This document shows positions 1 to 54,746 of a stretch of 54,746 bases of DNA, one piece after another. Position 1 is the stretch's first letter; every line of letters starts with the position of its first letter. The notes beneath the pieces were generated by a model that saw nothing but the letters and a program-made list of their open reading frames with translations, did no database searches and had not been told where the DNA came from. Origin of the DNA: a virus; IMG/VR virus record IMGVR_UViG_3300000117_000028, positions 1 through 54,746 of that record, one strand, 5' to 3'. A program made the position numbers and the translations under genes.

Positions 1-1
1 G

Positions 2-43
2 TGGGTGGCTACGATCCACACATCTGAAGTAACTTACGCCTAA
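2..43 (+). CDS. 3' end of a YadA-like tail fibre gene (5' truncated)
   Basis: The frame starting at base 2 reads WVATIHTSEVTYA and then TAA. The same C-terminal peptide, with one or two changes, closes the two complete fibre proteins that end at 52333 and 53610. This is therefore the tail of a third or later family member cut by the window edge. It is probably the gene still open at base 54746, although the two ends are not in frame if joined directly, so sequence is missing between them. Confidence 0.8.
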   Translation, partial: WVATIHTSEVTYA

Positions 44-55
44 AGGAGAAACTCA

Positions 56-361
56 ATGGCTATTCAAAACAACATCGCAGAAGGCAACAGCCAGTACGGC
101 ATCGCTTTCAACAACGCTTACTACCGCATCGTGACAGCGGCAATCAGCCGTCAACGTGGAACTGATCCAAAGTTCAGCGTGATGATTGACCTGTCAGCAT
201 ATGCGACAGCTACACCTGGTGACGACACTCGTGAGGTGGACTTCAAGCGGTACAACGCAAACCTAGATGACGTTCAGGCTGCATCAGGTGACGCATTCAT
301 AGACAAGTGCTATGCTTGGGTAATGGCTCAGGACGACATGGACGGGTCTACTGCCGTTTAA
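56..361 (+). CDS. small hypothetical protein in the fibre/tail cluster
   Basis: A 101-residue protein follows the truncated fibre gene by 12 bases and has a clear AAAGGAG ribosome site. I do not recognise a family. It has no signal peptide, membrane span or cysteine-rich motif; it has a mixed alpha/beta composition and an acidic C-terminal third. Its place between a fibre gene and a repeat-rich structural gene, all on one strand with short gaps, suggests a virion or assembly protein. Confidence 0.75.
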   Translation: MAIQNNIAEGNSQYGIAFNNAYYRIVTAAISRQRGTDPKFSVMIDLSAYATATPGDDTREVDFKRYNANLDDVQAASGDAFIDKCYAWVMAQDDMDGSTAV

Positions 362-21198: not shown

Positions 21199-22091
21199 TA
21201 CACGAAGTCCTCTTCGTCAATGTCCACAAATGCTTCAACAGTATCTGTATCTGTGTCATCATTCTTGTAGGCGTTTTCATCCCAAGCACCCTTGATGTAG
21301 TCGTTGTAGTTAGTAACCCATGCAAGGAAGTTTGCAAACGTTTCCTGCTCAGGGTCTGTAACATCAAGTGTCTCTTGTAGGTCAAGAGCTAAGGTAGGAA
21401 GATAGAATACACTACCATTTGGAAGTGCACGTTCTTCTGTCGCAGCTTTCATGTTGTGCTGTACAGGAAGTCGGCGCATCTTACTTAGCTTAGTAAAGAT
21501 AGTACCCGCAGTTTTAAATGCGTCACGGTTCTCAATCTCCCAGATGAATGCTTGAGGTTCCAAGTCCACAGGATTACCTTGTGCATCTGTTACATCGTGC
21601 ATCTCTACAGTACCAAACATAACACGAACACGTTTGATCTGACGGATCAGGTCTTGTGTTTTCTCTGGCAATGCTTTGAAGTCTTCAATCCATCCAGCAG
21701 GTTTACCACAGTTGAAACCACCGTCATTGTCTTTGAGATCACTGTTTAGATCGTTAGCCATAAGTGTCTTGACGTAACGATTAGGTGTAGTGTCACTACC
21801 TTTGATGAACCGCTTGTACATAAAGCGTTGTAGGTATGGGCGGATAGTAGCTGTGGGTGCATAGTAGGTAGGCCCATCTGGAATTTCCAGTTTGTATGTA
21901 CCACCTGATACAACTTCCATCTTTACTTTCTTACCGTTGATTGTGTCTTCACCCATGATAGCTGAGTGATTGATACGCAAACGTGCAAGTGTGCTTGCTT
22001 GTGATTTCTGTTTACCAGAATCCACAGACATGCCCATTGCCTCTGCCATTGCTGCGTAGTTACCTGTATTGATTGTTGCGATCTGTGTCAT
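21198..22091 (-). CDS. probable single-stranded DNA-binding protein
   Basis: A 297-residue protein ending in a long acidic tail with an aromatic near the end (DTVEAFVDIDEEDFV), the hallmark of T7 gp2.5-type and bacterial SSBs. The acidic tail recruits polymerase and helicase. The start MTQIATIN has GGAG at 8-9 bases; the ATG six bases upstream is too close to it. It lies directly downstream of the DNA polymerase and before the exonuclease. No OB-fold motif is obvious by eye, so the call rests on tail and context. Confidence 0.65.
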   Translation of the reverse strand: MTQIATINTGNYAAMAEAMGMSVDSGKQKSQASTLARLRINHSAIMGEDTINGKKVKMEVVSGGTYKLEIPDGPTYYAPTATIRPYLQRFMYKRFIKGSDTTPNRYVKTLMANDLNSDLKDNDGGFNCGKPAGWIEDFKALPEKTQDLIRQIKRVRVMFGTVEMHDVTDAQGNPVDLEPQAFIWEIENRDAFKTAGTIFTKLSKMRRLPVQHNMKAATEERALPNGSVFYLPTLALDLQETLDVTDPEQETFANFLAWVTNYNDYIKGAWDENAYKNDDTDTDTVEAFVDIDEEDFV

Positions 22092-22128
22092 AAACATTCT
22101 CCTTTTGTTTTAGCGAACCCTAGTTATA

Positions 22129-24180
22129 TCATGCTACATCATTTGTGTCAAGCCAGTTTGGACCAATCTTTGCCTCAAGAAGTAGTGGTACATTGAAGTC
22201 TAACCCCCACTTCTTGTTGACGATTGTTAGTAGCTTGTCATTGGCTGCACTTATGATACGTAATACTTTTTCCTCTTCTTCTGGATGCACATCAATCACG
22301 ATTGAATCGTGTACTGTATTGACTATGCATGATTGCATTTGATTTGCCTCTAATAACTTGTCAATGTATATCAGAGATATAGGTACAATGTCAGCCGTAG
22401 CAAACGATTGCACCGGAAAGTTTTTGATCTGTGTGAAAAATGTCACAGTACCATTAGCTCTACGTGTTACATCAGGGAAAGAGAACTCCCGACCTGATGG
22501 TGTCTTGATCTTGCCTGTAGCTAGAGCCTCACGTGCAAGATCCTTGTGCCACTTACCAATACCTGAGTACTTCTTAGTGAACTGCTCATAGTACGCTGCC
22601 TCTGCTGGGGTACGACCAAACCCACTAGCCCCATACAAAGGAGCAAATGTGTGTGCCTTGGCTTCCTGACGTGACATAGTTTGACCTGCATCACTGATCA
22701 CCTGTGCAGTGTATGAGTGTACATCAAACCCTGTAGTCACTTCATCAATGGCGGTCTTGTCCTGTGATAAGAATGCTGCCACACGAAACTCAAGCTGTGC
22801 AAAGTCAGCTTCCATAATCTGACCGCCAGTCCAACGTGATTTGAATACACGCTTCACTGGAAACGTACCACCACGTGGCATGTTCTGCATGTTAGGATCG
22901 GCACCAGATAAACGTCCCGTAGCTGTACGGTGTTGCAGTAGTCTGACGTGTAGAAGACCATCTTGTTTTACATGTGTTGATATGCCTTCCACAAAGCTTG
23001 ATAGATATGTATCAACGGCAGACAGACGGCGAACTCGTTGTAAGAACAACACTGCGTCCTGCATACCACGTTGTCTAGCGATACCTTCAAGGTACTCAAG
23101 TTTATCTTTGCTTGTTGCGAAACCGTTAGCTGAGGCCCATTTTGCTGTAGGTGCATTGAACTTTAACCCCGCAACAGACGAATGAATATCAATAAATATA
23201 TAACCTGAACTATCGCAGGTAGTACATTTATTTGTTCGTGCATAGAGTGTTCCATCTTTCTTTACCTTCCGTATCTGACCAGTGCCGTTGCATGTTGTGC
23301 ACTGCTTTGCTTTTTGTTTGTACAACGTCTTAGTATTCTGGCGTACTGTACTACGATAGTCCGTATCAGACATACGATACGAATCAAATAGGTCAGCCCA
23401 TACTTTTTTGTCATGGGGTTTCTTACTGTAGATAACCCAAGACAATTGCTCTGGACTATTGAGATTGATAGGACGATCACCCATCAACTCACTGATCTGT
23501 TCCTCAAGGTCACGTATCAACTGGTCACGTTCCTGTTGGAACTCTTGCCGCACACCCTCAAGTGCATCCATGTCTACACTGAACCCACGCTGATATACTT
23601 TAGCAAGGTGTATAGCTAACTGATTGGTCAGCCGTATAGTTCCGTCCAGTGAAGTGCATTCCTCGTATGATGTCTGCAAACGAAGATACAATTGCTGTGT
23701 GGCATGTAAGTCATGTGACAAGTACTCTGACAACTCTGCGTGTGGAATGTCACGTACTGAGTAGCCCTGCTTGAAATACTCCTTGAGTGTGTCTTGCTTC
23801 TGTGTGTCAAGGTTGTACCGTTCTGCACAAGCATCAAGTGATAGAGCTTCTTTCTGCCCACGCTGCAACACGTACTCACCTAGCATGGTGTCAAAGATAG
23901 GGCCATTGTATGTGAAGCCAGACTCCCAAAGCCAAAGCAAGTCGTGTGCAGCGTTGTGCATAATTAGAAGGGCGGTGTCATCCAGTTTCTGTTGGACAAT
24001 CAGCCGCCCCTCTGTGGTAGGTTGTTGCTCTGCGTGATCAAAAGTTACAATGTCTTGGTTTCCAAGATCATCTAGCATACCTACCATTACCAGTGTATTC
24101 TCTGGCTCAAACGGATCAAGGTGCATCTTACCATTCCGCTTTACCACAGTGTTTTCTACGTCAAGGGTAAGGTGTTTCAT
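22129..24180 (-). CDS. polA: family A DNA polymerase with DnaJ-like zinc insertion
   Basis: A 683-residue protein. The 3'-5' exonuclease domain has D7 and E9 (LDVEN), HNAAHD near 75 and YLSHDLHA near 153. The polymerase domain has motif A EADFAQLEF (D459), motif B RQEAKAHTFAPLYG (R504, K508, F512, Y516) and motif C VHDSIVID (H624, D625). Between them C294TTC297NGTG and C319TTC322 match the CxxCxGxG zinc repeats of DnaJ. The same unusual architecture was described for phage HMO-2011. It is the replicative polymerase. A GGAG site and ATG at 24180 fix the start. Confidence 0.95.
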   Translation of the reverse strand: MKHLTLDVENTVVKRNGKMHLDPFEPENTLVMVGMLDDLGNQDIVTFDHAEQQPTTEGRLIVQQKLDDTALLIMHNAAHDLLWLWESGFTYNGPIFDTMLGEYVLQRGQKEALSLDACAERYNLDTQKQDTLKEYFKQGYSVRDIPHAELSEYLSHDLHATQQLYLRLQTSYEECTSLDGTIRLTNQLAIHLAKVYQRGFSVDMDALEGVRQEFQQERDQLIRDLEEQISELMGDRPINLNSPEQLSWVIYSKKPHDKKVWADLFDSYRMSDTDYRSTVRQNTKTLYKQKAKQCTTCNGTGQIRKVKKDGTLYARTNKCTTCDSSGYIFIDIHSSVAGLKFNAPTAKWASANGFATSKDKLEYLEGIARQRGMQDAVLFLQRVRRLSAVDTYLSSFVEGISTHVKQDGLLHVRLLQHRTATGRLSGADPNMQNMPRGGTFPVKRVFKSRWTGGQIMEADFAQLEFRVAAFLSQDKTAIDEVTTGFDVHSYTAQVISDAGQTMSRQEAKAHTFAPLYGASGFGRTPAEAAYYEQFTKKYSGIGKWHKDLAREALATGKIKTPSGREFSFPDVTRRANGTVTFFTQIKNFPVQSFATADIVPISLIYIDKLLEANQMQSCIVNTVHDSIVIDVHPEEEEKVLRIISAANDKLLTIVNKKWGLDFNVPLLLEAKIGPNWLDTNDVA

Positions 24181-24188
24181 TGCGTCTC

Positions 24189-24386
24189 CTATATTGAATC
24201 GTTTGGATGCCAGTTATCCCATTCATCTTCTATTAATAGATCATTGCCATACACCTTGTCAAGTTCATTTTGAAACATTTTATCATTGGCGTACATCTGC
24301 ATTGCTTTCAATGCTTCTTTGCACGTCAAGTTTTGACGATGCATTTCTGATACAAGTGCTGCTGCATCTACTTCATCTTTGTTCAT
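24189..24386 (-). CDS. small acidic hypothetical protein
   Basis: A 65-residue helical protein with a GGAG site, 8 bases ahead of the polymerase gene. The C-terminus is tryptophan and acid rich (IEDEWDNWHPNDSI). No family is recognised. The spacing suggests co-translation with polymerase. Confidence 0.65.
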   Translation of the reverse strand: MNKDEVDAAALVSEMHRQNLTCKEALKAMQMYANDKMFQNELDKVYGNDLLIEDEWDNWHPNDSI

Positions 24387-24389
24387 TTG

Positions 24390-24629
24390 TTATCTCCCCT
24401 TTACTAACCGTGAATAGAAGGCACCCTCTGGACTACGTAGTGCCGTGTTTAAATCTAGCAACTGTTGGTACGACATATACAATATCTGATACTCATTTAG
24501 TGTGTTATCAAACTGTCTCAAGTAAACAACATCGTCATCACCGACTACCATTTCCACATCATTGAAGCGGTCATTTTCATCTAGTGTTGTTATGACTGCT
24601 GCATCACTTTCAAACTCAACTGTGTACAT
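24390..24629 (-). CDS. hypothetical protein
   Basis: A 79-residue protein, beta-rich in the first half (TVEFESDAAVITTLDENDRF) and helical in the second (ILYMSYQQLLDLNTAL). It overlaps the 42-residue gene upstream by 14 bases and leaves 3 bases before the next. No function is known to me. Confidence 0.65.
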   Translation of the reverse strand: MYTVEFESDAAVITTLDENDRFNDVEMVVGDDDVVYLRQFDNTLNEYQILYMSYQQLLDLNTALRSPEGAFYSRLVKGR

Positions 24630-24744
24630 CTGGCTGCTCTGCTACAAGAATGTTAACGTGAGCTACGTTACCTTCCACACGGGTGATAACATACTCAAGC
24701 CCTGCCTTGGTGAGTAACAATCTTAGTTGACCTATAGGTATCAT
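24616..24744 (-). CDS. 42-residue small protein
   Basis: A short frame starting MIPIGQLRLLLTKAGLEYVI and ending PDVHS. Its ATG overlaps the stop of the DUF3310 gene as ATGA, and its end overlaps the next start. This double overlap and the hydrophobic helix-strand pattern support a real gene that length filters would miss. It has no recognised family. Confidence 0.6.
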   Translation of the reverse strand: MIPIGQLRLLLTKAGLEYVITRVEGNVAHVNILVAEQPDVHS

Positions 24745-25037
24745 GTCTTATCCTTTCCATCTAGATGTATCAGACGATCCAAGTACCACTGTGACTTGAG
24801 TAGATCCTCTTGCTTGTTCTTGTAACGCCAGCGGTGTAGGTACTTAGCTATGTTACCACGAAGGTAGCCTATGTATTCCTCTGTGGTGAGGAAGTCTTCT
24901 ATGTAGTCAATGCACTCAATGCTACCCTTACCATAGTGCGCTGGGTTGTTGACGTTATCTGGTGTATGCTCTGCCAATACGGTCTCCTTAAAGTCTTCCT
25001 GCTCTTTCATCAATCGTTTCCACTCACTGTTTATCAT
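24741..25037 (-). CDS. DUF3310 family protein (phage nucleotide kinase-like)
   Basis: A 98-residue protein with the DUF3310 pattern: VNNPAHYGKGSIECIDYIED, then GNIAKYLHRWRYKNK and LLKSQWYLDRLI. Such proteins are common beside phage replication genes and are often labelled nucleotide kinase, but they have no P-loop and the enzyme role is unproven. GGAGG lies 7 bases before the ATG at 25037; the GTG one codon earlier is less likely. Confidence 0.75.
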   Translation of the reverse strand: MINSEWKRLMKEQEDFKETVLAEHTPDNVNNPAHYGKGSIECIDYIEDFLTTEEYIGYLRGNIAKYLHRWRYKNKQEDLLKSQWYLDRLIHLDGKDKT

Positions 25038-25071
25038 CACTCTTCCTCCAGACAGAAGCTACCCTCTGGTG

Positions 25072-25302
25072 TCATGGGTCTACCCCTCTCTCTTTCTGCG
25101 CCTTAATTACATCTTCATACTTGTTGAACAACTGCTCAAACTTCCACTGGTACACTTGCTGCATACCAAGCAGGGCGTTCATCAGTTCGTCTGGGGTAGG
25201 CTCACGCTCACCGTCACCTATCTGTTTGAAGATAGCCTTAAGGTCATCGCATACATGCCAGCAGTCCATTATCATTGGCTCTAAGTCATACAGTTTAGTC
25301 AT
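25072..25302 (-). CDS. hypothetical protein
   Basis: A 76-residue helical protein. GGGAGG is 6 bases before the second ATG (25302), which I take as the start. It overlaps the stop of the 51-residue gene upstream by 8 bases. It contains DCWHVCDDL and a C-terminal charged helix. I recall similar small proteins near ThyX in marine phages. The function is unknown. Confidence 0.65.
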
Positions 25303-25450
25303 CTTCATCCTCCCATTGTAGGCCAGTTTTAATTAACGACACAAAGCCCACGTTAAATATGGCTGCAAATGTCTCTGGGTCACACTCTACCTGCAACGTA
25401 GCACTGCCATCCTCATGCTCAGTTATTTCAGTTATTTTGACTTCACTCAT
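25295..25450 (-). CDS. 51-residue acidic small protein
   Basis: Begins [20 protein letters not shown] and ends QWEDEDD. A GGAG site lies upstream, its start overlaps the end of thyX by 8 bases, and its end overlaps the next gene. The [10 protein letters not shown] pattern resembles small phage proteins often found with nucleotide-metabolism genes. No function is known. Confidence 0.65.
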
Positions 25451-26093
25451 CGTCATCTCCTTGCATCAAAGCATCCCATGACACAGGAAATAACCTATCC
25501 ATGTGCCTATGGATATGCCATGCCACTAACCGTGTCTCGTACTGTGTGTCAGACTTACACCGTAGGTTACACATGTCAGCAAAGGCATCAAGGCTACCAG
25601 ACCAGTACCACTCAGTCATTGTAGACTGTGGCAGTACCATACGGGCTTGCTCCGGTGCTATACCTACCCGTAATAGCTCTTTGTATATATCCAGTTGGTT
25701 GTAGTTACCTAATGGCCCTTCATATTTTACTTCACCCTCACTACCTTGCTTCTTGTCAGCACTACGACCACGCCATACGTCAGGCACATAGAACTCAGGT
25801 TCATCATCTACGTAGCGCCTAGATATTTCGTTCCATCTCAAGAACTTATGCTTAACTAGCTGCCGTGCTACAAAGATTGGAGCCTTGACGTGGAAGGATG
25901 CGAAGCAATGCCCAAAGGGACTGATATGACGATGCTTGGCAAGGTAACGGATAAGCTTATCATCCTTAGCCTTGAGCTTAGGTGGACCCCAAGGATCGTC
26001 TTCCATCTCACTGGTCTTACCAAATGACACACGGGCAGCATTAGCTACGGTCAGGTCATTGCCCATGTGGTTTATGTATGTTGTTTTAATCAC
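25443..26093 (-). CDS. thyX: flavin-dependent thymidylate synthase ThyX
   Basis: A 216-residue enzyme making dTMP from dUMP with FAD, NADPH and methylene-tetrahydrofolate. The ThyX signature RQLVKHKFLRWNEISRRY lies at residues 77-94. The usual RHR is KHK (81-83), a conservative change, with the serine seven residues later (S91). A KHRHISPFGHC block at 53-63 and a C-terminal LVAWHIHRHMD also fit. The start is GTG with GGAG at about 8 bases, overlapping the endonuclease VII stop. Confidence 0.92.
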   Translation of the reverse strand: MIKTTYINHMGNDLTVANAARVSFGKTSEMEDDPWGPPKLKAKDDKLIRYLAKHRHISPFGHCFASFHVKAPIFVARQLVKHKFLRWNEISRRYVDDEPEFYVPDVWRGRSADKKQGSEGEVKYEGPLGNYNQLDIYKELLRVGIAPEQARMVLPQSTMTEWYWSGSLDAFADMCNLRCKSDTQYETRLVAWHIHRHMDRLFPVSWDALMQGDDDE

Positions 26094-26511
26094 GTGCTAT
26101 CTCCTCATGGTTTTGTAGGTACGCTAAGGCATTTCTAATTCTATTGATGTCATCTTTGAATGCACCAAGTCCTGTATTGCAATGATGACACAGCCAACCT
26201 CTATATGTTTCTGTATCATGGCAGTGATCAAGCACCCAATTCTGCAGTCTCTTCTGCCCCTTCTTGCCTATCTGATCAATGCTACGATCACATATAGGAC
26301 AAGTGTAATTGTCATCAGGATACGGATGCAACTTCTTTAGATAACTAACCAGATTGGATTGCTCCCTAGCGCAAGTACGGCACTTTCTTTTTATCTCACC
26401 TGATACCATGTGCTGAAAGTTATCAACTGGTTGTACAACACCACAGTTATTACATTCAAGTCCATCCTCGTAATGCTGTACAACCTTTTCAAATAGTTCT
26501 AGTTGGTTCAC
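26086..26511 (-). CDS. recombination endonuclease VII-like nuclease
   Basis: A 141-residue zinc-binding His-Me finger nuclease. Four zinc-ligand pairs are visible: CNNC, CRTC, CPIC and CHHC. The core VLDHCHDTETYRGWLCHHCN, then GLGAFKDDINRIRNAL, matches the T4 gp49 / endonuclease VII family. It would cut branched DNA. With endonuclease I this phage has two different junction-cleaving enzymes. The start is GTG, overlapping the helicase stop (GTGTGA). Confidence 0.87.
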   Translation of the reverse strand: MNQLELFEKVVQHYEDGLECNNCGVVQPVDNFQHMVSGEIKRKCRTCAREQSNLVSYLKKLHPYPDDNYTCPICDRSIDQIGKKGQKRLQNWVLDHCHDTETYRGWLCHHCNTGLGAFKDDINRIRNALAYLQNHEEIARD

Positions 26512-27731
26512 ACTGTATACCTCGCAGTCTTGTACTCTAGGTCACAATGTACAACACCATGCCAACCAGATAGTTTGTTCTTCACAACATTCAAGTGACG
26601 CTGTGTGTCTTCTTCCTCTTGCCCATCAACCACAGGGTTCTTGGCAATCAATACCATAAGGTCAGCTTCCGCTGCCTTACCAGTACGTGAGCCTTCCATC
26701 ATGCTCTGGTTCAGTAGAACCTTACCCTCTGCATCAGCTGATAGCTGAGACATGTAGAAGATAGCACAGTTGTGTGACTTGGCAATCTGACGGGCATAGA
26801 TAGCGTTAGCTTTCAGTGCTTCATCAGGACGTGAGAAGCCACCAGTACGGGCGAACTTATCACCCATGTCTAGGATTACAATGTCAGGCTTGTATGACTT
26901 ACACACAGACTCAACCCATGACATGTCACGATCACTTGCATCTTTGATCTTGATGTTGTCTGCAACAACTGAGTATGCATCACGGGCACGGGCTGGGTTA
27001 TCCTTCACCTCTTGCATAGTCATACCAGTAGCCGCAGTCAGATACCGTGCACCAACACGGTGTGATGCTTCTTCATTACATAAGATAACACACTTGGCAC
27101 CTTGATGTGCAAAGCCACCCGGTGCTGCAATGAGAGAGGCGTGAAAGGATGTCTTGCCTGTGTTGGGACGTGCACCCACTTCAATCAAGTGACCTGCATT
27201 GACGCCCTCTACCTTACGTGTAAGGGTAGGTATGTTGAATGACCATTGCGATTCAAGATCATTCTTTTCTAGCAGTGTGTCAACGTCAATGTCATCCCAC
27301 TCAATACGTAGGTCAGGGGTGAAGTCATCTGAGTAACGCTCAAGTATATCACGCAATGGCTCAAGGCTACCCTTCGTACCGTTTACGTAGTCAAACCCAA
27401 GGTTGGCAACGTCTTCTCCTACGACCTGCTGGAACAGCTTAGACAACACTTCCTGTGCTATGTCGCTGCCCATAGGGGCTTCCTTCTTGATCTGATTAAA
27501 CAGTGAACTGTAAGCGCCCTTCTGCGCTGTGGTGAGGGTTGGATTGTTGGACATAAACAATGCCTCAATTTCATCCGGTGTAATTGTACGCTCATAGCGA
27601 TCCATAGCTGTGTCGATTGCTTGCTTGATCTTACGCACATCTTTGCTGAACAGTCTATCAGGACACTTAGCACCACGATGATCATCGTAGAACTCTTTAT
27701 CCATAAGGCTGCGTATTAGTGATAGTTCCAT
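26508..27731 (-). CDS. DnaB/T7 gp4-like replicative helicase
   Basis: A 407-residue RecA-fold hexameric helicase. Walker A is GARPNTGKTS (186-195), Walker B is PDIVILDMGD (D288), and a sensor-like FYMSQLSADAEGK follows near 323. The N-terminal 150 residues lack zinc motifs, so primase is a separate gene (next upstream), unlike T7 where the two are fused. ATG overlaps the primase stop (TAATG), which keeps the two proteins in step. Confidence 0.9.
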   Translation of the reverse strand: MELSLIRSLMDKEFYDDHRGAKCPDRLFSKDVRKIKQAIDTAMDRYERTITPDEIEALFMSNNPTLTTAQKGAYSSLFNQIKKEAPMGSDIAQEVLSKLFQQVVGEDVANLGFDYVNGTKGSLEPLRDILERYSDDFTPDLRIEWDDIDVDTLLEKNDLESQWSFNIPTLTRKVEGVNAGHLIEVGARPNTGKTSFHASLIAAPGGFAHQGAKCVILCNEEASHRVGARYLTAATGMTMQEVKDNPARARDAYSVVADNIKIKDASDRDMSWVESVCKSYKPDIVILDMGDKFARTGGFSRPDEALKANAIYARQIAKSHNCAIFYMSQLSADAEGKVLLNQSMMEGSRTGKAAEADLMVLIAKNPVVDGQEEEDTQRHLNVVKNKLSGWHGVVHCDLEYKTARYTV

Positions 27732-28525
27732 TATACTTCTCCAAGTGTTGTTAGATTTTCTATGTCGGTAGGGTTTCGGTATTTCAGGTCATCTGTTAGT
27801 CGGAGTACCTTCACATCGTGAACATACCCTCGTAATTCTTTTGCGAATTGCAGTGTCTTTGGTAGGGCGTCAGGGTCTAGTGCAATTATAACCGTTGAGA
27901 ATTGTGAGAGATACTGCTTATGTACCTCAGAAAGTGAGGTGCCCAACACTGCTACCCCGACATACACTCCACCTTCTGAGCATCCAGATACATTAGTCTC
28001 ACCCACAATGGCAGCACTAACACAATCCTCAACGACTACTCCCGTTGTACCATAGCCACATGCATAGGGCAAGGGATTTTTACCATACCTTTTCCATTTA
28101 GGTATCTTTTTTCCTAGTGCTCTACCTGTCGCATCCACCATGATGTTGTTGTGCACCACAGGAAATACGACACGGTGTTCACGAACATCATACAACAAAC
28201 CGAGGTCACGAGCATCCAGTTCCCATGTGTCACAGAAGTCTCGCACAGCATCATAGTCTTTCACAAGCCACTCAGGTTTATGAAAGGATACTGCCTCAGT
28301 CTCTTCTGCTACAGAGCCTAGAGATTTACGAATGTCATCACTGGTAAGTGCGGTACGAGTACCACCAGACACACTACACCCTGCTTTGTAACAGTTCCAC
28401 ATAAGCTGACCCATGTTATTAGTTGCTGTAAATGTTTTAACTCCCCCACATACGGGACAGTTAGTACGTTTACTTTCACCATTCACTAAGTCCATATCAC
28501 TTATATGTTCTTGTATACTATTCAT
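27731..28525 (-). CDS. DNA primase (zinc-binding plus Toprim)
   Basis: A 264-residue protein. The N-terminal zinc ribbon has C23, C26, C45 and C50 (CPVC...CYKAGC). The Toprim core has E166 (GVVVEDCVSAA) and the D217-x-D219 pair (IIALDPDA). It makes RNA primers for the coupled helicase and polymerase. I choose the ATG at 28525 (MNSIQEH), which overlaps the integrase 3' end by 8 bases; a TTG 15 bases upstream is possible. Confidence 0.88.
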   Translation of the reverse strand: MNSIQEHISDMDLVNGESKRTNCPVCGGVKTFTATNNMGQLMWNCYKAGCSVSGGTRTALTSDDIRKSLGSVAEETEAVSFHKPEWLVKDYDAVRDFCDTWELDARDLGLLYDVREHRVVFPVVHNNIMVDATGRALGKKIPKWKRYGKNPLPYACGYGTTGVVVEDCVSAAIVGETNVSGCSEGGVYVGVAVLGTSLSEVHKQYLSQFSTVIIALDPDALPKTLQFAKELRGYVHDVKVLRLTDDLKYRNPTDIENLTTLGEV

Positions 28526-29645
28526 GTATATCACTTTCAATGTTATTCGCTACACTCAATTGTACATGTACGTTTCTTTGTGTCAAGGCATTATTTGCAC
28601 TTTCGTATGTATGCTTCATGTATGGTTTCACAGATGCAACATGTGTGTGACCTGTTACTGCCATGATTTGTGGTAGTGGAACGCCCCTGTCTACCATCTG
28701 TGTCACACCAGTTCTGCGTAAGTCCATCAGCCTTAGCTCTTCATTTAACTTTGCTAACCTCATGATGCGGCGTCCAACCTTGGACAGTCTTTCCATTGCA
28801 TACGGTTTAAACCTACCATCACGTGGCTGTGGATGTGGTGCCACCCATTCTTGAAAACCAAAGTCTGCTTTCTGCTCAAGCAACATAGCATTTAGATTGT
28901 CACTGATAGGTAGGAACACCTCTGCCCTACGCTTGCTCTGCTCTAATCGTAGCTGCTGTTTCTTTAGGTCAACATTCTCCCAGCGTAGCATACGCATGTC
29001 ACCTAATCGTTGGCACCATTCGTATGCCATCTGTACAATGAGACCAATGTTACGGTACTCAAAGTCGCTGTAAGCTACATCAAGAAACTTGACAACATCA
29101 CGATGCTCCCACACATTCTTGCGCTGCTGGGTTGCCTTACGTTTGATCTTTGCGAAAGGGTTTTGCTCTGCATGTTCCATTTGTATGGCGTAGTTATATA
29201 CCCTACTAGCACAGGTTGCCGCATGGTTAGCGAAGCTAATGCCACGCTTCACCCAATCCTCATATGCACGTTTTGCAATCTTAGGTGTGACATCTTTATA
29301 CTTGCGACACCCAATTGTCTGGTGAACAACGGTCAAGAAATACCTGTAGTCTACCTTAGTTGAGTCACGTAACATACTGAAATCGTTTGACAAGTAGTAG
29401 AAGTTAATGAGGTCAGTGACCTTGCTGCTAGGCTTTAGTTCTACAACTTGAGCTTGCTTGTCACGATATGCATCAATGTCTTTGTTGTACTCACGGGCAA
29501 TCCTTCTCGCAACCTTTATATCTCCACTAAGTTCCTCACGTTCTACTACTCCTGCATTCACCAGTGGCTGTGGTGGATTGAAACGGAATGAGATGTCACC
29601 AGAAGGTGACACTCGTTTCTGTACATATCGTGGTAGTTTAGGCAT
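28518..29645 (-). CDS. int: tyrosine integrase/recombinase
   Basis: A 375-residue protein with an N-terminal SAM-like core-binding region (about 70-180) and a catalytic domain. R213 lies in CQRLGDMRML, R310 in LMDLRRTG, H333 in TGHTH, and the likely nucleophile is Y342 in VKPYMKHTY. The usual His of the HxxR box is Met307, which is unusual and could lower activity. It would integrate or excise phage DNA, or resolve multimers. No repressor was found. The gene lies within the replication cluster, coupled to primase. A variant palindrome copy (28772) encodes S-K-V-G here. Confidence 0.9.
   Translation of the reverse strand: MPKLPRYVQKRVSPSGDISFRFNPPQPLVNAGVVEREELSGDIKVARRIAREYNKDIDAYRDKQAQVVELKPSSKVTDLINFYYLSNDFSMLRDSTKVDYRYFLTVVHQTIGCRKYKDVTPKIAKRAYEDWVKRGISFANHAATCASRVYNYAIQMEHAEQNPFAKIKRKATQQRKNVWEHRDVVKFLDVAYSDFEYRNIGLIVQMAYEWCQRLGDMRMLRWENVDLKKQQLRLEQSKRRAEVFLPISDNLNAMLLEQKADFGFQEWVAPHPQPRDGRFKPYAMERLSKVGRRIMRLAKLNEELRLMDLRRTGVTQMVDRGVPLPQIMAVTGHTHVASVKPYMKHTYESANNALTQRNVHVQLSVANNIESDIHE
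28772..28785. repeat. palindrome copy 2 (variant) inside the integrase gene
   Basis: GTCCAACCTTGGAC differs at one central base and encodes S-K-V-G near the integrase box II. AGTC follows on the plus strand, so its orientation is opposite to copies 3 and 6. Confidence 0.7.
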
Positions 29646-48103: not shown

Positions 48104-48189
48104 ATATTAAGTGCACCCATAAACGATTAGCCTCTATAATAAGTAATACATAGTTTGCATCTGTAAAACTAATGCTAAGGAGAATTACG

Positions 48190-49260
48190 ATGGCATTCGG
48201 TTCCGCAGGGGGTTATACCAACCTCCCCAATGGTAACTTTTCCCCAGTTATCTATTCCAAACAGGTGCAACTTGCATTCCGCAAAGCATCTATTACTGAA
48301 GCAATCACTAACAATGATTATTTCGGAGAAATCGCCAACATGGGCGATACAGTAAAAATCATCAAAGAACCCGAAATTTCCGTGTCGGCATATCTACGTG
48401 GTACAACAATCGCACCACAAGATTTGGCTGATGCTGATTTCTCGTTAGTTGTTGATAAAGCTAACTATTTTGCTTTCAAAGTAGACGATATTGAAGAGGC
48501 TCATAGCCACATCAATTTCCAAACTCTTGCATCTGATCGTGCCGCCTTCCGTTTGGCTGACCAACATGACCAAGAAGTTCTTGGCTATTTGGCTGGTTAC
48601 AAACAGGCTGCATTACACGCAAATGCAGGCGTAGTAAACAATGTAGTCAATGGTACTAAAGCTAATGCAGCTGCAGGTACTGACGAACTCCTAGCAGCTA
48701 ACAAGCTGAATAAAGTTTCGTTTGGCAACATTACTACTGCTTCAGCTGCGGATCACTCTATCCCAGTTGCTGCACGTCTTCCCGGTGCAACGGCACTTCC
48801 AACTGCTTATGTCTCACCTGCAATGCTTGTTGCACGTATGGCACGTCTGTTGGATGCGCAAAACATACCTACACAGGGACGGTGGATCGTAATTGACCCG
48901 GTAATGATGGAAGTACTTCGTGACGAAGATTCACGTCTTTTGAACGCAGACTTCGGTGGTGCTGGTCTACAGAATGGTCTGGTGTTAAACAACTTCCACG
49001 GTTTCCGTGTACATGTTTCAAACAACCTTCCTTCCGTAGGAACTGGTCCATCGACAACAGGTACAGCTAACCAGAACACTAACTATGGTGTGATTGTTGC
49101 TGGACACGATTCATCTGTTGCAACTGCAGAGCAGATCAACAAGACGGAAACATACCGTGACCCAGACAGCTTTGCTGACATTGTTCGTGGTATGCATCTC
49201 TATGGGCGCAAAATCTTGCGTCCTGAAGGTCTTGTTACAGCTAAGTATAACTTGGCTTAA
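48190..49260 (+). CDS. major capsid protein
   Basis: A 356-residue protein. AAGGAG sits 8-9 bases before the ATG at 48190 (MAFGSAGG), so an in-frame start 18 bases upstream is unlikely. Patterns YSKQVQLAFRKASITEAITN, GDTVKIIKEP, LRGTTIAPQDLADADFSLVV, GRWIVIDPVMMEVLRDE and GFRVHVSNNLP fit T7-like/HK97-fold podovirus capsids. It is preceded by its own promoter and followed by a terminator. Confidence 0.9.
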   Translation: MAFGSAGGYTNLPNGNFSPVIYSKQVQLAFRKASITEAITNNDYFGEIANMGDTVKIIKEPEISVSAYLRGTTIAPQDLADADFSLVVDKANYFAFKVDDIEEAHSHINFQTLASDRAAFRLADQHDQEVLGYLAGYKQAALHANAGVVNNVVNGTKANAAAGTDELLAANKLNKVSFGNITTASAADHSIPVAARLPGATALPTAYVSPAMLVARMARLLDAQNIPTQGRWIVIDPVMMEVLRDEDSRLLNADFGGAGLQNGLVLNNFHGFRVHVSNNLPSVGTGPSTTGTANQNTNYGVIVAGHDSSVATAEQINKTETYRDPDSFADIVRGMHLYGRKILRPEGLVTAKYNLA

Positions 49261-49296: not shown

Positions 49297-49320
49297 GTGC
49301 TTACTATAAAGGTTCTACTA

Positions 49321-49758
49321 ATGTCAATCACTACAGCAGTATGTAACAGCTTTAAGCAGGAACTGCTTGGTGGTGTGCATGACTTAGATACCGACACAAT
49401 AAAAGTTGCACTAATTAAAGTATCGCCAACTGGTACTTATAATTCAAGTACAACAAACTACGCAGACGTTACAAACAATTCAGATGAAGCTTTAGGTGTA
49501 GGTTATACTGCTGGTGGAAACACACTAACAGGTGCAACTATTGCTTTAGACAGTTCTACTGCTACAGTCGATTATGACAATACCACATGGTCATCCGTAA
49601 CTGTTTCTGCTGATGGGTGTATCATTTATAACTCATCTAAGTCCAACAGAGCTATTGCTGTAGTTTCTTTTGGTTCAACTAAGAAGTCTATCAATGGGGA
49701 TTTTACAGTTCAATTTCCCGCAGCAGACGCATCTAACGCCATAATACGTATTGCATAA
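49321..49758 (+). CDS. small virion protein, decoration-like
   Basis: A 145-residue beta-rich protein. AAAGG lies 8 bases before the ATG. TAVCNSFKQELLGGVHDL followed by DTIKVALIK is a marker common in proteins placed after capsid genes in marine phages. The place after the capsid terminator suggests a head decoration or stabilising protein. Confidence 0.68.
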   Translation: MSITTAVCNSFKQELLGGVHDLDTDTIKVALIKVSPTGTYNSSTTNYADVTNNSDEALGVGYTAGGNTLTGATIALDSSTATVDYDNTTWSSVTVSADGCIIYNSSKSNRAIAVVSFGSTKKSINGDFTVQFPAADASNAIIRIA

Positions 49759-49769
49759 GGAGTAAACAA

Positions 49770-50207
49770 ATGGCATCTTTTAATAAGGTTAATGACTTCG
49801 TTAAAAACGCAGTCCACAATATGGACTTGGAATCAGACCAGTTCGTAGTTGCACTATCAAACACAGCACCAGCATCTGAATCTTCAAATCCAGAATCAGA
49901 TGGTAATGGTATTATTGGTAATGTAACAGAGATAGCATATACAAATCTATCTTCTCGTAACATTACAACTACTTCATCTGCACAGTCAGGTGGTACATAT
50001 AAGTTGGTTCTTTCAGACATTACACTAACATCTACGGGTGGTTCAACTGGCCCATTCCGCTACATCTATATCTATGATGATACAGTAACAACACCTGCTG
50101 ATCCTATTGTTGGTTACTATGATTATGGTTCATCCTTAACTCTGAACGATGGTGATAGCTTTACTGTAGACTTTAATGCTGCTAACGGTGTAATTCAACT
50201 TACGTAA
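49770..50207 (+). CDS. small virion protein, related fold
   Basis: A 145-residue beta-rich protein with AAGGAG. KVNDFVKNAVHNMDL and DQFVVALSNTAPA mirror the first 30 residues of the protein before it, so the two may share a fold. The C-terminal half has FRYIYIYDDTVTTPADPIVG and LNDGDSFTVDF. Probably a minor head or tail component. Confidence 0.66.
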   Translation: MASFNKVNDFVKNAVHNMDLESDQFVVALSNTAPASESSNPESDGNGIIGNVTEIAYTNLSSRNITTTSSAQSGGTYKLVLSDITLTSTGGSTGPFRYIYIYDDTVTTPADPIVGYYDYGSSLTLNDGDSFTVDFNAANGVIQLT

Positions 50208-50219
50208 GGTTAAAGATCA

Positions 50220-50594
50220 ATGGTCACTCTTGTAAATAGAGCAAAGATGTCCACTAGTACGATAGGTACAGGGACAATAACTTTGGGTAGTGCCGAAAGC
50301 GGCTACCAGAGCTTTGCTGATGCAGGGGTGACTGATGGTGACACAGTAAGATATACTATTGAAGATGGCACAGCCTTTGAGATTGGCTCTGGTGTATATA
50401 CAGCCACAGGTACTACCTTGAGTAGGACAGTATCTGAAAGCTCTAACTTAGGTTCAGCTATCAGCTTGTCTGGTTCTGCAACTGTATTTGTTACAGCTAC
50501 TGCAAGAGATATTAATATATACGATGTAGATGGTGGTAATGCTTCGTCTGTTTATGATGCAAGTCTACAAGCTCTTGATGGGGGTTCTGCCTAA
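50220..50594 (+). CDS. fibre-region protein with TGTGTITLGSA domain
   Basis: A 124-residue protein. VNRAKMSTSTIGTGTITLGS, then GYQSFADAGVTDGDTVRYTI and the IEDG...EIGSG block, is a domain I recall at the N-terminus of tail or fibre proteins in alphaproteobacterial phages. It appears free-standing here, coupled to the first YadA-like fibre (TAATG), and may be its adaptor. Confidence 0.7.
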   Translation: MVTLVNRAKMSTSTIGTGTITLGSAESGYQSFADAGVTDGDTVRYTIEDGTAFEIGSGVYTATGTTLSRTVSESSNLGSAISLSGSATVFVTATARDINIYDVDGGNASSVYDASLQALDGGSA

Positions 50595-52333
50595 TGGCAA
50601 ATAAGATACAAATACGTAGAGATGTTGCTGCTAACTGGACTAGCAGTAACCCTACTTTGTCACAAGGTGAGCAAGGCTACGAGACAGACACAGGCAAGAT
50701 AAAGATCGGTGATGGCTCTACAGCTTGGACTAGCTTAGGTTATTCTTTTGAGGGTAGTACTGTAGGTGGTGCTACAGGCACAGACTACGATGATGATGTA
50801 AAGGTTCGTTTCGGTACTGGTAATGACTTAGAGATTTACCACGATGGTACGACAAATAATTCTTACATCAAAGAGACTAACGCTTCTGGTCACTTAATTA
50901 TCCAAGGCCAAGAAATACAATTTGATAATGCCGCTGGAACAAGTTTAATGAACTTGAGTGGTTCTCAAATTGAACTGTTGCATGGTGGCAGCACAAAGCT
51001 AGAAACCACGTCATCTGGCATTCAAACCACGGGTACAGTCAATGTAAACGGAGCCTACACTCTACCCACATCAGACGGTACTAACGGACAAGTGCTTACC
51101 ACAGATGGCTCAGGTGCTGTTACGTTTGCAGATGCTGGCGGCGGTGGGGCTGCTTTAGAGTTATACGCTGAGAACCCTAGTTCACCTACAGCGCCTAGTG
51201 CTACTGGCACAAATGCTGTTGCAATAGGTAGCGGTTCAAGTGCTACAGGAACAAAAGCAATTTCTATTGGTGACACTGGTTCTATTGCAGCGCAAGAAGC
51301 TGTAGGTATAGGTGATGCTGCTATTGTCTATAGTAGTGCTACACAAGGTGTTGCAGTCGGTAAGGATACTCAGGTAGGTGGTGCTTATTCGGCAGCCCTT
51401 GGTACAAAGGCAAATGTTTCAAGCGGTCAATATGCAACGGCAATTGGTTGTAATAGTGCTGCAGCTGGTGCAACAGTAGCTGGCAATGGCGCAATCGCAA
51501 TTGGTGCTTCCTACGCCTCTGGCACAGACAGCTTTGCTGCAGCTATAGATTTAAATTCGTCAAGCTATGGTGCACTTAGCAGTAATAGTGTTGCAATAGG
51601 TAAATATGCCAAGTCTAATAGTAGTAACGGAGTTGCAATAGGTAATGGATCATTAGCTTCAGGTTTAAGTGCTGTTACATTAGGTATAAGTTCATTAGCA
51701 AGTGGAACTTTTTCTACAGCAATAGGCTATGGGTCTTATGCATCGGCAGGTAACTCTGTATCTGTTGGTAGGTCGTCTAATGCATCTGGGAGCCAGTCTT
51801 TAGCATTAGGTTATCAATCAAGTGCTTCAGGTACACACTCTGCTGCTATTGGTAGAAACGCAAAAGCAGAGTTATATGGTAAATTAGCTTATACTGCACA
51901 TGACTTTGGTGCTAGTAGCATCTATAGCCAAGCAGGTACTTATGTACTTATGTCCGACACAACCGATGCTACAGCAGAGGCTCTGACAACAAACAACAGC
52001 ACTGCTGGCGCCACCAACCAAATCATCCTCCCCAACAACGGTGCCTACAGCTTCTCAGGCACAATCATAGCAAGGGAAGATGCAACAGATGGCAGTGACT
52101 ACGCAAGTTGGGAAATCAAGGGTGCATTGTTGCGTGACGCCAATGCTGCATCGACTGTGCTTGGCAACGGCATCAAGAATAAGCTGTATGCCTCTGCTGG
52201 TGCCTCTGCGTGGGACATTGCACTTACTGCTGACACAACCAACGGCGGCTTGAAGATAGAGGTCACTGGCGCAGCAAGCACAAACATTAGGTGGGTTGCC
52301 ACGGTCAACACAAGCGAGGTTACATACGCATAA
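50594..52333 (+). CDS. YadA-like trimeric tail fibre 1
   Basis: A 579-residue protein. Residues 1-50 (IQIRRDVAANWTSSNPTLSQ...GYETDTGKIKIGDGSTAWTSL) match the Mtd-like fibre N-terminal domain. A linker YTLPTSDGTNGQVLTTDGSG follows. Residues about 205-425 are YadA-head repeats of 14-16 residues (AIGxGSxAxG, ALGxxSxASG). The C-terminal 130 residues form a conserved tip ending NIRWVATVNTSEVTYA. It is probably a trimer with a left-handed beta-roll shaft, used for receptor binding. Confidence 0.85.
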   Translation: MANKIQIRRDVAANWTSSNPTLSQGEQGYETDTGKIKIGDGSTAWTSLGYSFEGSTVGGATGTDYDDDVKVRFGTGNDLEIYHDGTTNNSYIKETNASGHLIIQGQEIQFDNAAGTSLMNLSGSQIELLHGGSTKLETTSSGIQTTGTVNVNGAYTLPTSDGTNGQVLTTDGSGAVTFADAGGGGAALELYAENPSSPTAPSATGTNAVAIGSGSSATGTKAISIGDTGSIAAQEAVGIGDAAIVYSSATQGVAVGKDTQVGGAYSAALGTKANVSSGQYATAIGCNSAAAGATVAGNGAIAIGASYASGTDSFAAAIDLNSSSYGALSSNSVAIGKYAKSNSSNGVAIGNGSLASGLSAVTLGISSLASGTFSTAIGYGSYASAGNSVSVGRSSNASGSQSLALGYQSSASGTHSAAIGRNAKAELYGKLAYTAHDFGASSIYSQAGTYVLMSDTTDATAEALTTNNSTAGATNQIILPNNGAYSFSGTIIAREDATDGSDYASWEIKGALLRDANAASTVLGNGIKNKLYASAGASAWDIALTADTTNGGLKIEVTGAASTNIRWVATVNTSEVTYA

Positions 52334-53610
52334 TGGGTAAAATTGAATTAGATCACACAGGCTCAGGCAGCGGCGTTACACTTAGCTCTGACGGTACTGA
52401 CCTGCTCTTAGATGGAGCAGCTATTGGTGGTGGCGGTGCAGCACTTGAGTTGTATGCTGAGAACCCTAGTAGTGCTACAGCGCCAACAACGGCTGGTGCT
52501 AATGATATTGCTATAGGTAGTGGTGCTGATACTCTATTAACTTCTACTGATAAGTTGGCGATTGGAACTAGCACAACAGCGCAAGGCAACTACGCAACAG
52601 CAGTAGGTGCTTACGCTCGTGCTGACGGCAATAACTCATCCGCTGCTTTTGGATATGCAACCGATGCAGGAGGTCAAGGTGCTTTAGCTTTAGGGTATTT
52701 AGCTAGCGCTCAAGGCTCACAAGCTACTGCCATAAATTATTCTTACGCCTCTGGTGCAAGCAGCTTTGCAGCAGCTATAACCAACAACACGGCTAGCTAT
52801 GGTGCTACGGGGGCTAACTCTGTGGCTATTGGGTATCAGGCGAAAGCAACTCAAAGCTACGCATTTGCAGTTGGTTATCAGGCACAGGCAACAAACAACA
52901 CATCTATTTCAATGGGCTTTCAATCAGTATCTTCAGGCAGTCAAAGTATTGCTTTGGGATATAAAGGTCAGGCAACTGGAATTAAATCCTTTGGTGTTCA
53001 TAACAATACTAACGGTGGTGCAACAGGAACTAATTCAGTTGCAATTGGTGATAGCTGTTTGGCAAGTTCAGTTAATTCTATAGCTATTGGACAAAATGCA
53101 AAAGCTGATGCTAATACATCGGTTGCTATCGGTAAATACGTTGACACAAAAGGTATTTTTGGCAAGTTTGTATTTAGTGCTGCTTCTCTGTCAGGAAACG
53201 CCGATGGGTCTTCACAGTCAGGCAAGCAAGTTCTTATGTGTGACACTACAGATGCCACCGCAGAGGCTTTAAATGCTCATAATGGTACAGCATCTGCAAC
53301 CAACCAAGTCATCCTACCCAACAACTCAGCCTATTTCTTCAGCGGAACCTGCGTAGCTCGTGAGAGTGCCACCGATGGTACAGACATGGGTGCATGGGAG
53401 TTTAAGGGTTGCATACGCCGTGAAGCCAACGCTGGCACAACAACACTTGTTAGCTCAACTATTGACGAGTTCTCAGCACCTACGGGTTGGTCTATTGCAT
53501 TAAGTGCAGACACGACAAACGGTGGATTAGCTGTTACAGTGACAGGTGCGGCATCTACTAACATTAGGTGGGTTGCTACCGTACATACATCGGAGGTTAC
53601 ATACGCATAA
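52333..53610 (+). CDS. YadA-like trimeric tail fibre 2
   Basis: A 425-residue protein. The ATG overlaps the previous stop (TAATG) and begins MGKIELDHTGSGSGVTLSSD, matching the start of the next fibre gene; a start 42 bases upstream is unlikely. It lacks the Mtd-like domain. GGGGAALELYAENPSS links to YadA repeats at about 60-290, and then to a C-terminal tip closely similar to that of fibre 1 and ending NIRWVATVHTSEVTYA. Fibre 2 looks like a duplicated fibre with a new shaft. Confidence 0.85.
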   Translation: MGKIELDHTGSGSGVTLSSDGTDLLLDGAAIGGGGAALELYAENPSSATAPTTAGANDIAIGSGADTLLTSTDKLAIGTSTTAQGNYATAVGAYARADGNNSSAAFGYATDAGGQGALALGYLASAQGSQATAINYSYASGASSFAAAITNNTASYGATGANSVAIGYQAKATQSYAFAVGYQAQATNNTSISMGFQSVSSGSQSIALGYKGQATGIKSFGVHNNTNGGATGTNSVAIGDSCLASSVNSIAIGQNAKADANTSVAIGKYVDTKGIFGKFVFSAASLSGNADGSSQSGKQVLMCDTTDATAEALNAHNGTASATNQVILPNNSAYFFSGTCVARESATDGTDMGAWEFKGCIRREANAGTTTLVSSTIDEFSAPTGWSIALSADTTNGGLAVTVTGAASTNIRWVATVHTSEVTYA

Positions 53611-54746
53611 TGGGTGCTATTAATTTAAAACATAATGGTAGCGGTTCTGACATAACACTCTCTAGTGACGGCACTGACCTACTCTTAGACGGTACAGCTA
53701 TTGGTGGAGGTGGTGGTTCACCTGATCTGTTTGCTGATAATTGGAACGGTACATCCACACAACCAAGTGCAACGGGTGAAAACGCAGTCGCACTTGGATA
53801 TGGCTCTGTATCTAGTGGCATCCAAGGGATGGCACTCGGCACACGAGCAGTAGCTTATGGGTCTGGTAATACTACTTGGGGCATGGTTGCCTTCACGGAC
53901 TCATATGCTTCAGGCAGACATTCCTTAGCAGGTGCAATTGCATCAGGCATTTCTAGTTATGGCGCTACTGGTCAAGGCTCAGTAGCCTTTGGTCAGCAGT
54001 CCAAAGCTACAAGCAGTTATGCGACTGCCATTGGTATGACATGTACTGCATCAGGTAGCTATTCTACTGCAATAGGCGATAACGCTGTAGCATCACACGC
54101 AAATGGTATTGCCATAGGTGACGCCGCAACTACTTCAGCAACAAACCAAATTGCTCTTGGTGGTACAGCTGATACCGTAAAGATCAGCGGAACTTACACC
54201 CTACCCACCTCAGATGGTACTAACGGACAGGTTCTAACCACAGACGGTTCAGGGGCAGTTACCTTTGCTGATGCTGGTGGCGGTGGGGGTGCTGATCTGT
54301 ACGCTGCTGAGACTACAGGGTCTACTGACCCGACTGCTACAGGCACACTTTCTTTAGCCATAGGTTCTAGTGCAAACGGCTCTGGCACTAATGCAGTTGC
54401 TATTGGCAATGGGGCTGCAGCAGGGACTTACTCTGTTGGAATAGGTTGGAACGCAGGAAACACTGGGTCAAATAACACTATTATTGGTCGCACTGGCTCA
54501 ACAGCGGGTACGTCTGGCGCAACTGTTATTGGTTATAATGCTGATGTTGCTGACTACACGTCGAATCAGACTGCATTAGGGTATCAGGCAAAAACTAGCA
54601 GCGGTGCGCAAGCTACAGCTTTAACTCAGTCCTATGCTTCTGGTGGAAACAGCTTTGCAGCCGCTATAGCCAACAACTCATCTAGCTACGGCGCTACTGG
54701 TGCGAATAGCATTGCGATGGGATCGCTGGCAAAGGCTACTGGATCT
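53610..54746 (+). CDS. YadA-like trimeric tail fibre 3 (3' truncated by window end)
   Basis: Open from MGAINLKHNGSGSDITLSSD to base 54746 (379 codons). YadA repeats occur in two blocks, separated by a copy of the TLPTSDGTNGQVLTTDGSGA linker near residue 196, which in fibre 1 lies before the shaft. This suggests mosaic assembly of fibre modules. The C-terminal tip is absent here; a matching end peptide is at bases 2-43. Confidence 0.85.
   Translation, partial: MGAINLKHNGSGSDITLSSDGTDLLLDGTAIGGGGGSPDLFADNWNGTSTQPSATGENAVALGYGSVSSGIQGMALGTRAVAYGSGNTTWGMVAFTDSYASGRHSLAGAIASGISSYGATGQGSVAFGQQSKATSSYATAIGMTCTASGSYSTAIGDNAVASHANGIAIGDAATTSATNQIALGGTADTVKISGTYTLPTSDGTNGQVLTTDGSGAVTFADAGGGGGADLYAAETTGSTDPTATGTLSLAIGSSANGSGTNAVAIGNGAAAGTYSVGIGWNAGNTGSNNTIIGRTGSTAGTSGATVIGYNADVADYTSNQTALGYQAKTSSGAQATALTQSYASGGNSFAAAIANNSSSYGATGANSIAMGSLAKATGS

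Follow-up and report, generated by a model that had tools for sequence, protein, structure and literature searches.

The window analyzed here, the complete IMG/VR record IMGVR_UViG_3300000117_000028 (54,746 nucleotides), carries a cassette of YadA-type fibre genes that appears to be organized as a modular array. On the reading to which we incline, the first fibre would anchor the array, each later fibre would dock by an address peptide that is specified by the preceding tip, and the shafts between these ends would be exchangeable. Well over 100 IMG/VR contigs of several phage types hold related arrays, with one to four fibres each; these contigs are metagenomic assemblies and are not all independent. 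Phage isolates lack such arrays almost entirely. Judged from these sequences, the arrays have a common architecture, tips specific to their position, N-termini paired with the tip that precedes them, and shafts that have been exchanged. More tentatively, the pairing may constitute an address code in uncultured marine phages, in which a peptide class matched to the type of the preceding tip programs the order of one to four fibres.

The fibre genes and their genomic setting

The initial annotation had described a row of at least three YadA-like fibre genes with related ends, different shafts and TAATG coupling, and all of these features were borne out. YadA_head repeats (PF05658) are present in fibres 1, 2, and 3 (Pfam E-values of 1e-15, 4e-22, and 6e-20, respectively), and the TAATG overlaps lie at 50594, 52333, and 53610 (Table 1). 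The start of fibre 2 is the ATG at 52333; the GTG chosen by the ORF lister is further upstream, at 52291. Fibres 1 and 2 have a common tip (66% identity over 132 aligned residues; BLASTP E 1e-82) and end in the near-identical peptides RWVATVNTSEVTYA and RWVATVHTSEVTYA, while the first 35 or so residues are common to fibres 2 and 3 (MGKIELDHTGSGSGVTLSSDGTDLLLDG and MGAINLKHNGSGSDITLSSDGTDLLLDG). The shafts differ in repeat number, with 17, 13, and 16 YadA-like pentads in fibres 1, 2, and 3, the third of which is incomplete. These counts exceed those of every shuffled sequence (means of 6.0, 4.8, and 7.5; maxima of 12, 11, and 15). In addition, fibre 1 possesses an Mtd_N domain (PF18454) at residues 5-43 (Pfam E 2e-15), and fibre 3 holds a second linker and shaft start at 54173-54293 that is 82% identical to fibre 1 at 51034-51154. 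The YadA-like repeats are broken up by a conserved SYASG...SYGA segment, about 22 residues long, which occurs once each in fibres 1 and 2 (residues 306 and 137, respectively) and twice in fibre 3 (residues 98 and 341).

Table 1. Features of the fibre cassette in the window
Feature	Positions	Strand	Basis or remarks
End of last fibre of the same array (WVATIHTSEVTYA stop)	1..43	+	across contig break
W56, 101-aa conserved gene	56..361	+	directly after last fibre in nearly all arrays
Major capsid protein (P22-coat type), upstream border of cassette	48172..49260	+	tblastn
phrog_644 protein, first small cassette gene	49297..49758	+	phrog_644 E 2.4e-23
Small cassette gene	49770..50207	+	homologues precede first fibre in L089, L092, L094, L102, L103, L114
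124-aa module, separate gene in window	50220..50594	+	phmmer matches at first residues of first fibres
Fibre 1 (anchor fibre): Mtd_N, linker, YadA-like shaft, tip preceding K-class N-termini	50594..52333	+	Pfam, tip tree and classes; 579 aa
Tip of fibre 1, predicted beta-sandwich	51860..52330	+	AlphaFold2, Foldseek
Fibre 2: K-class N-terminal peptide (MGKIELDHTGSG), YadA-like shaft, tip preceding A-class N-termini	52333..53610	+	425 aa
N-terminal peptide of fibre 2 (K class)	52333..52437	+	class residues conserved across contigs; coupled to preceding tip
Fibre 3: A-class N-terminal peptide (MGAINLKHNGSG), shaft, internal linker, second shaft segment	53610..54746	+	379 aa so far, contig end

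The record is a circularly permuted contig that is broken inside the fibre array. At its other end, positions 2-43 encode WVATIHTSEVTYA and a stop codon, ending 12 nt before the next gene, W56. The ending WVATIHTSEVTYA is found in 28 of 101 tips of the type that precedes W56, here called LAST, vs. none of 120 other tips. From this tip end and the position of W56, the circular order must run from fibres 1, 2, and 3 through the last fibre to W56; the last fibre may be fibre 3 or a later one. W56 is well conserved (76% mean column identity in alignment A1) and also occurs on two metagenome-assembled bacterial contigs. Its predicted model (pLDDT 72) matches no PDB structure, and a search of 50,697 phage records found no match to W56 and only one weak match to fibre 2, in Cyanophage Cy-LDV1 (36%). 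Further downstream, positions 372-2327 of the window encode a 651-aa protein of many GxFxLTGQ-type repeats that starts with MLGFSPLAAAPLADD, and proteins with similar starts lie downstream of the arrays in L104, L141, and L147. In L275, an HNH endonuclease ORF (5372-5989) is located between the last fibre and W56, and a similar ORF end is found at that place in L273.

A role of W56 as a cap or chaperone of the tip is not supported, as W56 is retained in arrays that end in a different tip. In L229, L236, L257, and L242, the terminal fibre lacks the tip domain, ending in an LYG motif in the first three, and an extra gene precedes W56. The copy of this gene in L229 is a Phage_tail_APC chaperone (Pfam), and the other copies are similar by eye. 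Since terminal fibres with other end domains still have W56, not every element of the cassette is tip-dependent.

Based on its capsid, portal, terminase, and tail genes and its polymerase, the record is assigned to the HMO-2011-type podoviruses. By tblastn, its coat protein shares 89% identity with that of Roseobacter phage CRP-1 and 72% with that of HMO-2011. The gene order terminase, portal, coat, and tail is conserved, with synteny to CRP-1, CRP-9, CRP-13, and HMO-2011. The family A DNA polymerase (DNA_pol_A, Pfam E 3e-55) has a DnaJ_CXXCXGXG zinc segment at residues 288-329, a weak match (E 2e-5) below the Pfam gathering score. The interval between the coat and tail adaptor genes, in which the array lies, is empty or holds one short gene in CRP-1, CRP-13, and HMO-2011, and it holds one large fibre headed by the 124-aa module in CRP-207 (gp54) and CRP-603 (gp58). 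In most relatives, this module forms the N-terminal part of the first fibre, and a phrog_644 gene lies upstream of the arrays in many of them. The array is unusual for the HMO-2011-type group, since neither the tip nor the N-terminal peptide was found in any of 80 contigs with related coat genes (L008-L087); in several of these, the site is occupied by other genes, some of them fibre-like. HMO-2011 itself (L005) carries at 22025-28377 a row of roughly twelve short genes, annotated variously as tail fibre, tail-related, or C1q-domain proteins, which is unlike the YadA-type array. Elsewhere in the window, on the minus strand, a Phage integrase family protein (28518-29645; Pfam E 2e-17) suggests a temperate lifestyle, and a Recombination endonuclease VII domain protein (26086-26511) adjoins a ThyX gene. 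Scans of the window for tRNAs and Rfam families found nothing.

Relatives of the array were collected with fibre 2 (65 loci), with W56 (80 loci), and with a DNA pattern for the N-terminal peptide, which gave further loci; the samples partly overlap, and the HMMs were built from this same fibre family. The common plan comprises short genes, an anchor fibre, zero to three fibres that begin with the N-terminal peptide, and then W56. Comparison of fibre numbers across relatives, as the initial annotation had suggested, gave one, two, and three fibres in 24, 7, and 5 complete arrays of the W56-anchored sample, respectively, and L102 has four. Junctions between genes are 1-nt overlaps in 71 of 86 cases, and the genes of readable arrays are mostly open. 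Because the flanking genes vary (PhoH, other portals and coat proteins), the cassette must reside in different phage types. The anchors of the first fibres also vary, including the 124-aa module, Mtd_N, a podovirus tail-fibre type, and others, and the downstream N-terminal peptide is unchanged across phages whose anchors differ.

Tip types and the N-termini that follow them

The tip of fibre 1 is predicted with AlphaFold2 to form a beta-sandwich (pLDDT 89.8, pTM 0.83). The model strongly matches the tips of other YadA- and collagen-like viral fibres. It also weakly matches phage tailspike domains in the PDB and T4 gp9 (TM about 0.3-0.4), which connects the long tail fibres of T4, while a PDB search with the tip by sequence found no match. 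Tip-like domains also terminate single fibres, and the domain is therefore more than a joint.

Four classes of N-terminal peptide can be told apart at residues 3-8, namely K (MGKIELDH), Q (MGQIEINH), A (MG.IN.KH), and S (MG..N.DN). That the classes are so few is in part an effect of ascertainment, because the DNA pattern search constrains residues 4-10 of the peptides that it can detect; the W56-anchored sample, which is free of this bias, holds K, S, and A only. The class residues are conserved across contigs while synonymous codons vary. Correspondingly, the last 90 or so residues of the tips sort into types, each of which precedes one N-terminal class of the next gene, and the LAST type precedes W56. 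In the window, a K peptide comes after the fibre 1 tip and an A peptide after that of fibre 2.

Tips cluster by position in the array and not by phage, as seen in a tree of 96 tips. On this tree, the LAST label requires 3 changes vs. 29.8 when shuffled, and none of 500 shuffles required as few. The three middle tips that fall among the LAST tips are those followed by a gap of 11-12 nt instead of the 1-nt overlap. Within two-gene arrays, first tips are 75% and last tips 67% identical between phages, but the first and last tips of the same array are only 54.5% identical. Concerted evolution of the tips within an array was rejected because they group by position. In a held-out test, each of the 30 new tips located immediately upstream of W56 had a LAST tip as its nearest neighbor, among them the tips of 19 single first fibres. 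The tip of a first fibre is therefore of the LAST type if the fibre stands alone and of another type if a further fibre comes after it.

The association between tip and following peptide is close. Where the gene upstream of an N-terminal peptide was readable, a tip-domain gene lay directly before it in 122 of 123 cases, and the upstream gene of the single exception has a tip-like end, RVSASVFTSEFVYS. The nearest neighbors of a tip, taken from other contigs and at no more than 90% identity, predict the N-terminal class of the next gene in 115 of 120 cases (base rate 0.45). The C-terminal 90 or so residues suffice for this accuracy (115/120, at up to 95% identity), and the N-terminal part of the tip gives 75/120. 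For genes with an N-terminal peptide of their own, the tip predicts the next class in 21 of 23 cases and the gene's own class in 11 of 23. Simple nearness of tip and peptide was rejected as the cause by a shaft control: among pairs sharing 75-99% identity over the 270 nt that lead up to the peptide, 992 of 992 agree in class, whereas among pairs with this level of similarity over the 270 nt that follow, in the gene's own shaft, 10 of 21 do. This control does not reject inheritance of tip end and peptide as one block. Additionally, a gene's own class equals the next class in only 1 of 23 genes (6.0 expected, P = 0.006), a scarcity that could reflect polymerization of self-matched fibres. The avoidance is not absolute, as one array, L242, has a gene with matching classes at its two ends.

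Exchange of shafts

For the tandem fibres, the initial annotation had suggested either a mixed fibre or a stock for recombination. The latter is well supported by near-identical arrays with different shafts, and there is no specific support for the former. The opposing case that it had named, relatives with the same genes and no exchange, does not hold, because near-identical arrays differ in their shafts and shafts change position. Arrays L119 and L144 are 99.4% identical over 2861 nt, yet their first fibres are 445 and 719 aa long. Likewise, L092 and L094 are 99.4% identical over 4951 nt and have a different third shaft. Other near-identical pairs that differ in one shaft are L129/L132, L155/L187, L111/L128, and L116/L143. 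Moreover, 34 alignments of 85-97% DNA identity join the shafts of genes with a different N-terminal class or position, and many of them begin some 85-110 nt downstream of the ATG, where the peptide ends. For example, between gene 2 of L123 and gene 3 of L129, 22 of the first 96 nt are mismatched and 6 of the following 204. In the window, part of the fibre 3 shaft, from nt 672, shares 87.7% identity with gene 2 of L116, whose start is of the K class. The breakpoints lie at the edges of the block formed by the tip end and the address, and conserved stretches border this block on either side, with LPNNSAY lying in the tip and SSDGTDLLLDGTAIGGGG following the address.

Proposed assembly of the array and comparison with known systems

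Together, these observations are consistent with a mechanism in which the product of gene 1 attaches to the virion through an N-terminal anchor specific to the virion type. Each later gene opens with a conserved peptide of about 30 residues, in which residues 3-8 would serve as an address matched to the C-terminal 90 or so residues of the preceding fibre's tip. Each fibre trimer would then use its peptide to dock to the tip before it, or to a partner that this tip specifies, so that the fibres assemble in gene order until a LAST-type tip terminates the array. The shafts would be interchangeable units that recombination at the conserved ends moves between phages and between positions, so that surface recognition varies and assembly is undisturbed. 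Trimeric fibres, physical docking, a serial rather than a branched chain, and host contact by the shafts or the terminal tip are inferred elements of this reading.

It is also possible, though less likely, that the downstream fibres attach independently, each docking by its peptide to a common hub of the tail, with the pairing a trace of linkage. Short conserved N-terminal peptides that dock to an adapter or a first fibre are known (PMC6872550), and the tip end and next peptide may pass as one block between LPNNSAY and SSDGTDLLLDGTAIGGGG without physical contact, as the conserved borders and the breakpoints at the block's edges would allow. However, the same peptide occurs across phages with different anchors and tails, which makes a partner inside the cassette more likely than a tail hub. 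A hub would have no need for several conserved classes matched to the preceding tip, and Pfam and PHROGs scans of the fibres (E up to 0.01) found no T4gp10-like branching domain. The groups of phages G7C, KP32, and PhiK64-1 and the K1-5 adapter provide the closest examples of anchor-branched receptor-binding proteins. In these systems, the first protein has the virion anchor, later ones have only a short conserved N-terminal docking peptide, and central parts are swapped horizontally (PMC6872550). The window array likewise has an anchor domain in the first protein only and a short conserved peptide in the others, but it differs in its several matched tip and peptide classes, the pairing with the preceding tip, and the YadA-like shafts. 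No depolymerase was found in the fibres scanned with Pfam and PHROGs.

The mixed fibre of the initial annotation, with chains of different genes forming heterotrimers, is hardly probable despite the similar repeat type and related ends. The shafts differ in length and sequence, the N-termini differ (Mtd_N vs. address peptide), and the tips of one two-gene array resemble each other less than orthologous tips across phages do, all of which favors specialized homotrimers. Position-matched ends would also fit separate fibres joined in order better than co-trimerization. Alternatively, the genes could form an archive, with one fibre in use at a time and the rest in reserve for recombination or phase variation. 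While shafts have clearly been exchanged between positions, the open and coupled genes and the conservation of position-specific tips across phages make an archive very unlikely, and Pfam scans of selected window genes found no invertase near the array.

Joining of the fibres in series by matched ends, the preferred reading, has a parallel in the T4 long tail fibre, for which gp34, gp35, gp36, and gp37 are described as forming one fibre with gp34 phage-proximal and gp37 distal (PMC5537660). Both consist of several gene products, with serial joining proposed for the array. In contrast to T4, the array has one to four segments of one common domain architecture, and no sequence relation was detected. 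The variable host-recognition modules of marine phages (metaviromic islands) include tail fibre and C1q-like genes, which rank with the most variable regions of these genomes, and one fibre carries a YadA domain; ordered arrays or matched ends are not described in the passages of that paper on these genes (PMC3909814). CRP-207 gp54 and CRP-603 gp58 of Roseobacter phages lie at the same site, separated from the capsid gene by a short gene, and have the 124-aa N-terminal module, but only one fibre is annotated there. As in the YadA trimeric autotransporter adhesins, head repeats are present in all three fibres. However, no Pfam match to the C-terminal outer-membrane anchor barrel was found in them and the C-terminus is a predicted beta-sandwich tip, so the fibres have a YadA-like shaft and are not autotransporters. 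Similarly, fibre 1 possesses the N-terminal domain of Mtd, a target of a diversity-generating retroelement, with no Pfam match to its C-type-lectin variable domain.

How phages change their receptor-binding fibres without breaking assembly is a long-standing question. Here, sequence alone distinguishes the part that is exchanged from the conserved joints in more than 100 natural arrays of several phage types, among them one of the most abundant marine phage groups, and almost none of the phages concerned are known from cultures. If real, the address code would predict the natural neighbors among fibre segments and explain modular fibre change, and it would let recombination reshuffle the shafts without misassembly or self-polymerization.
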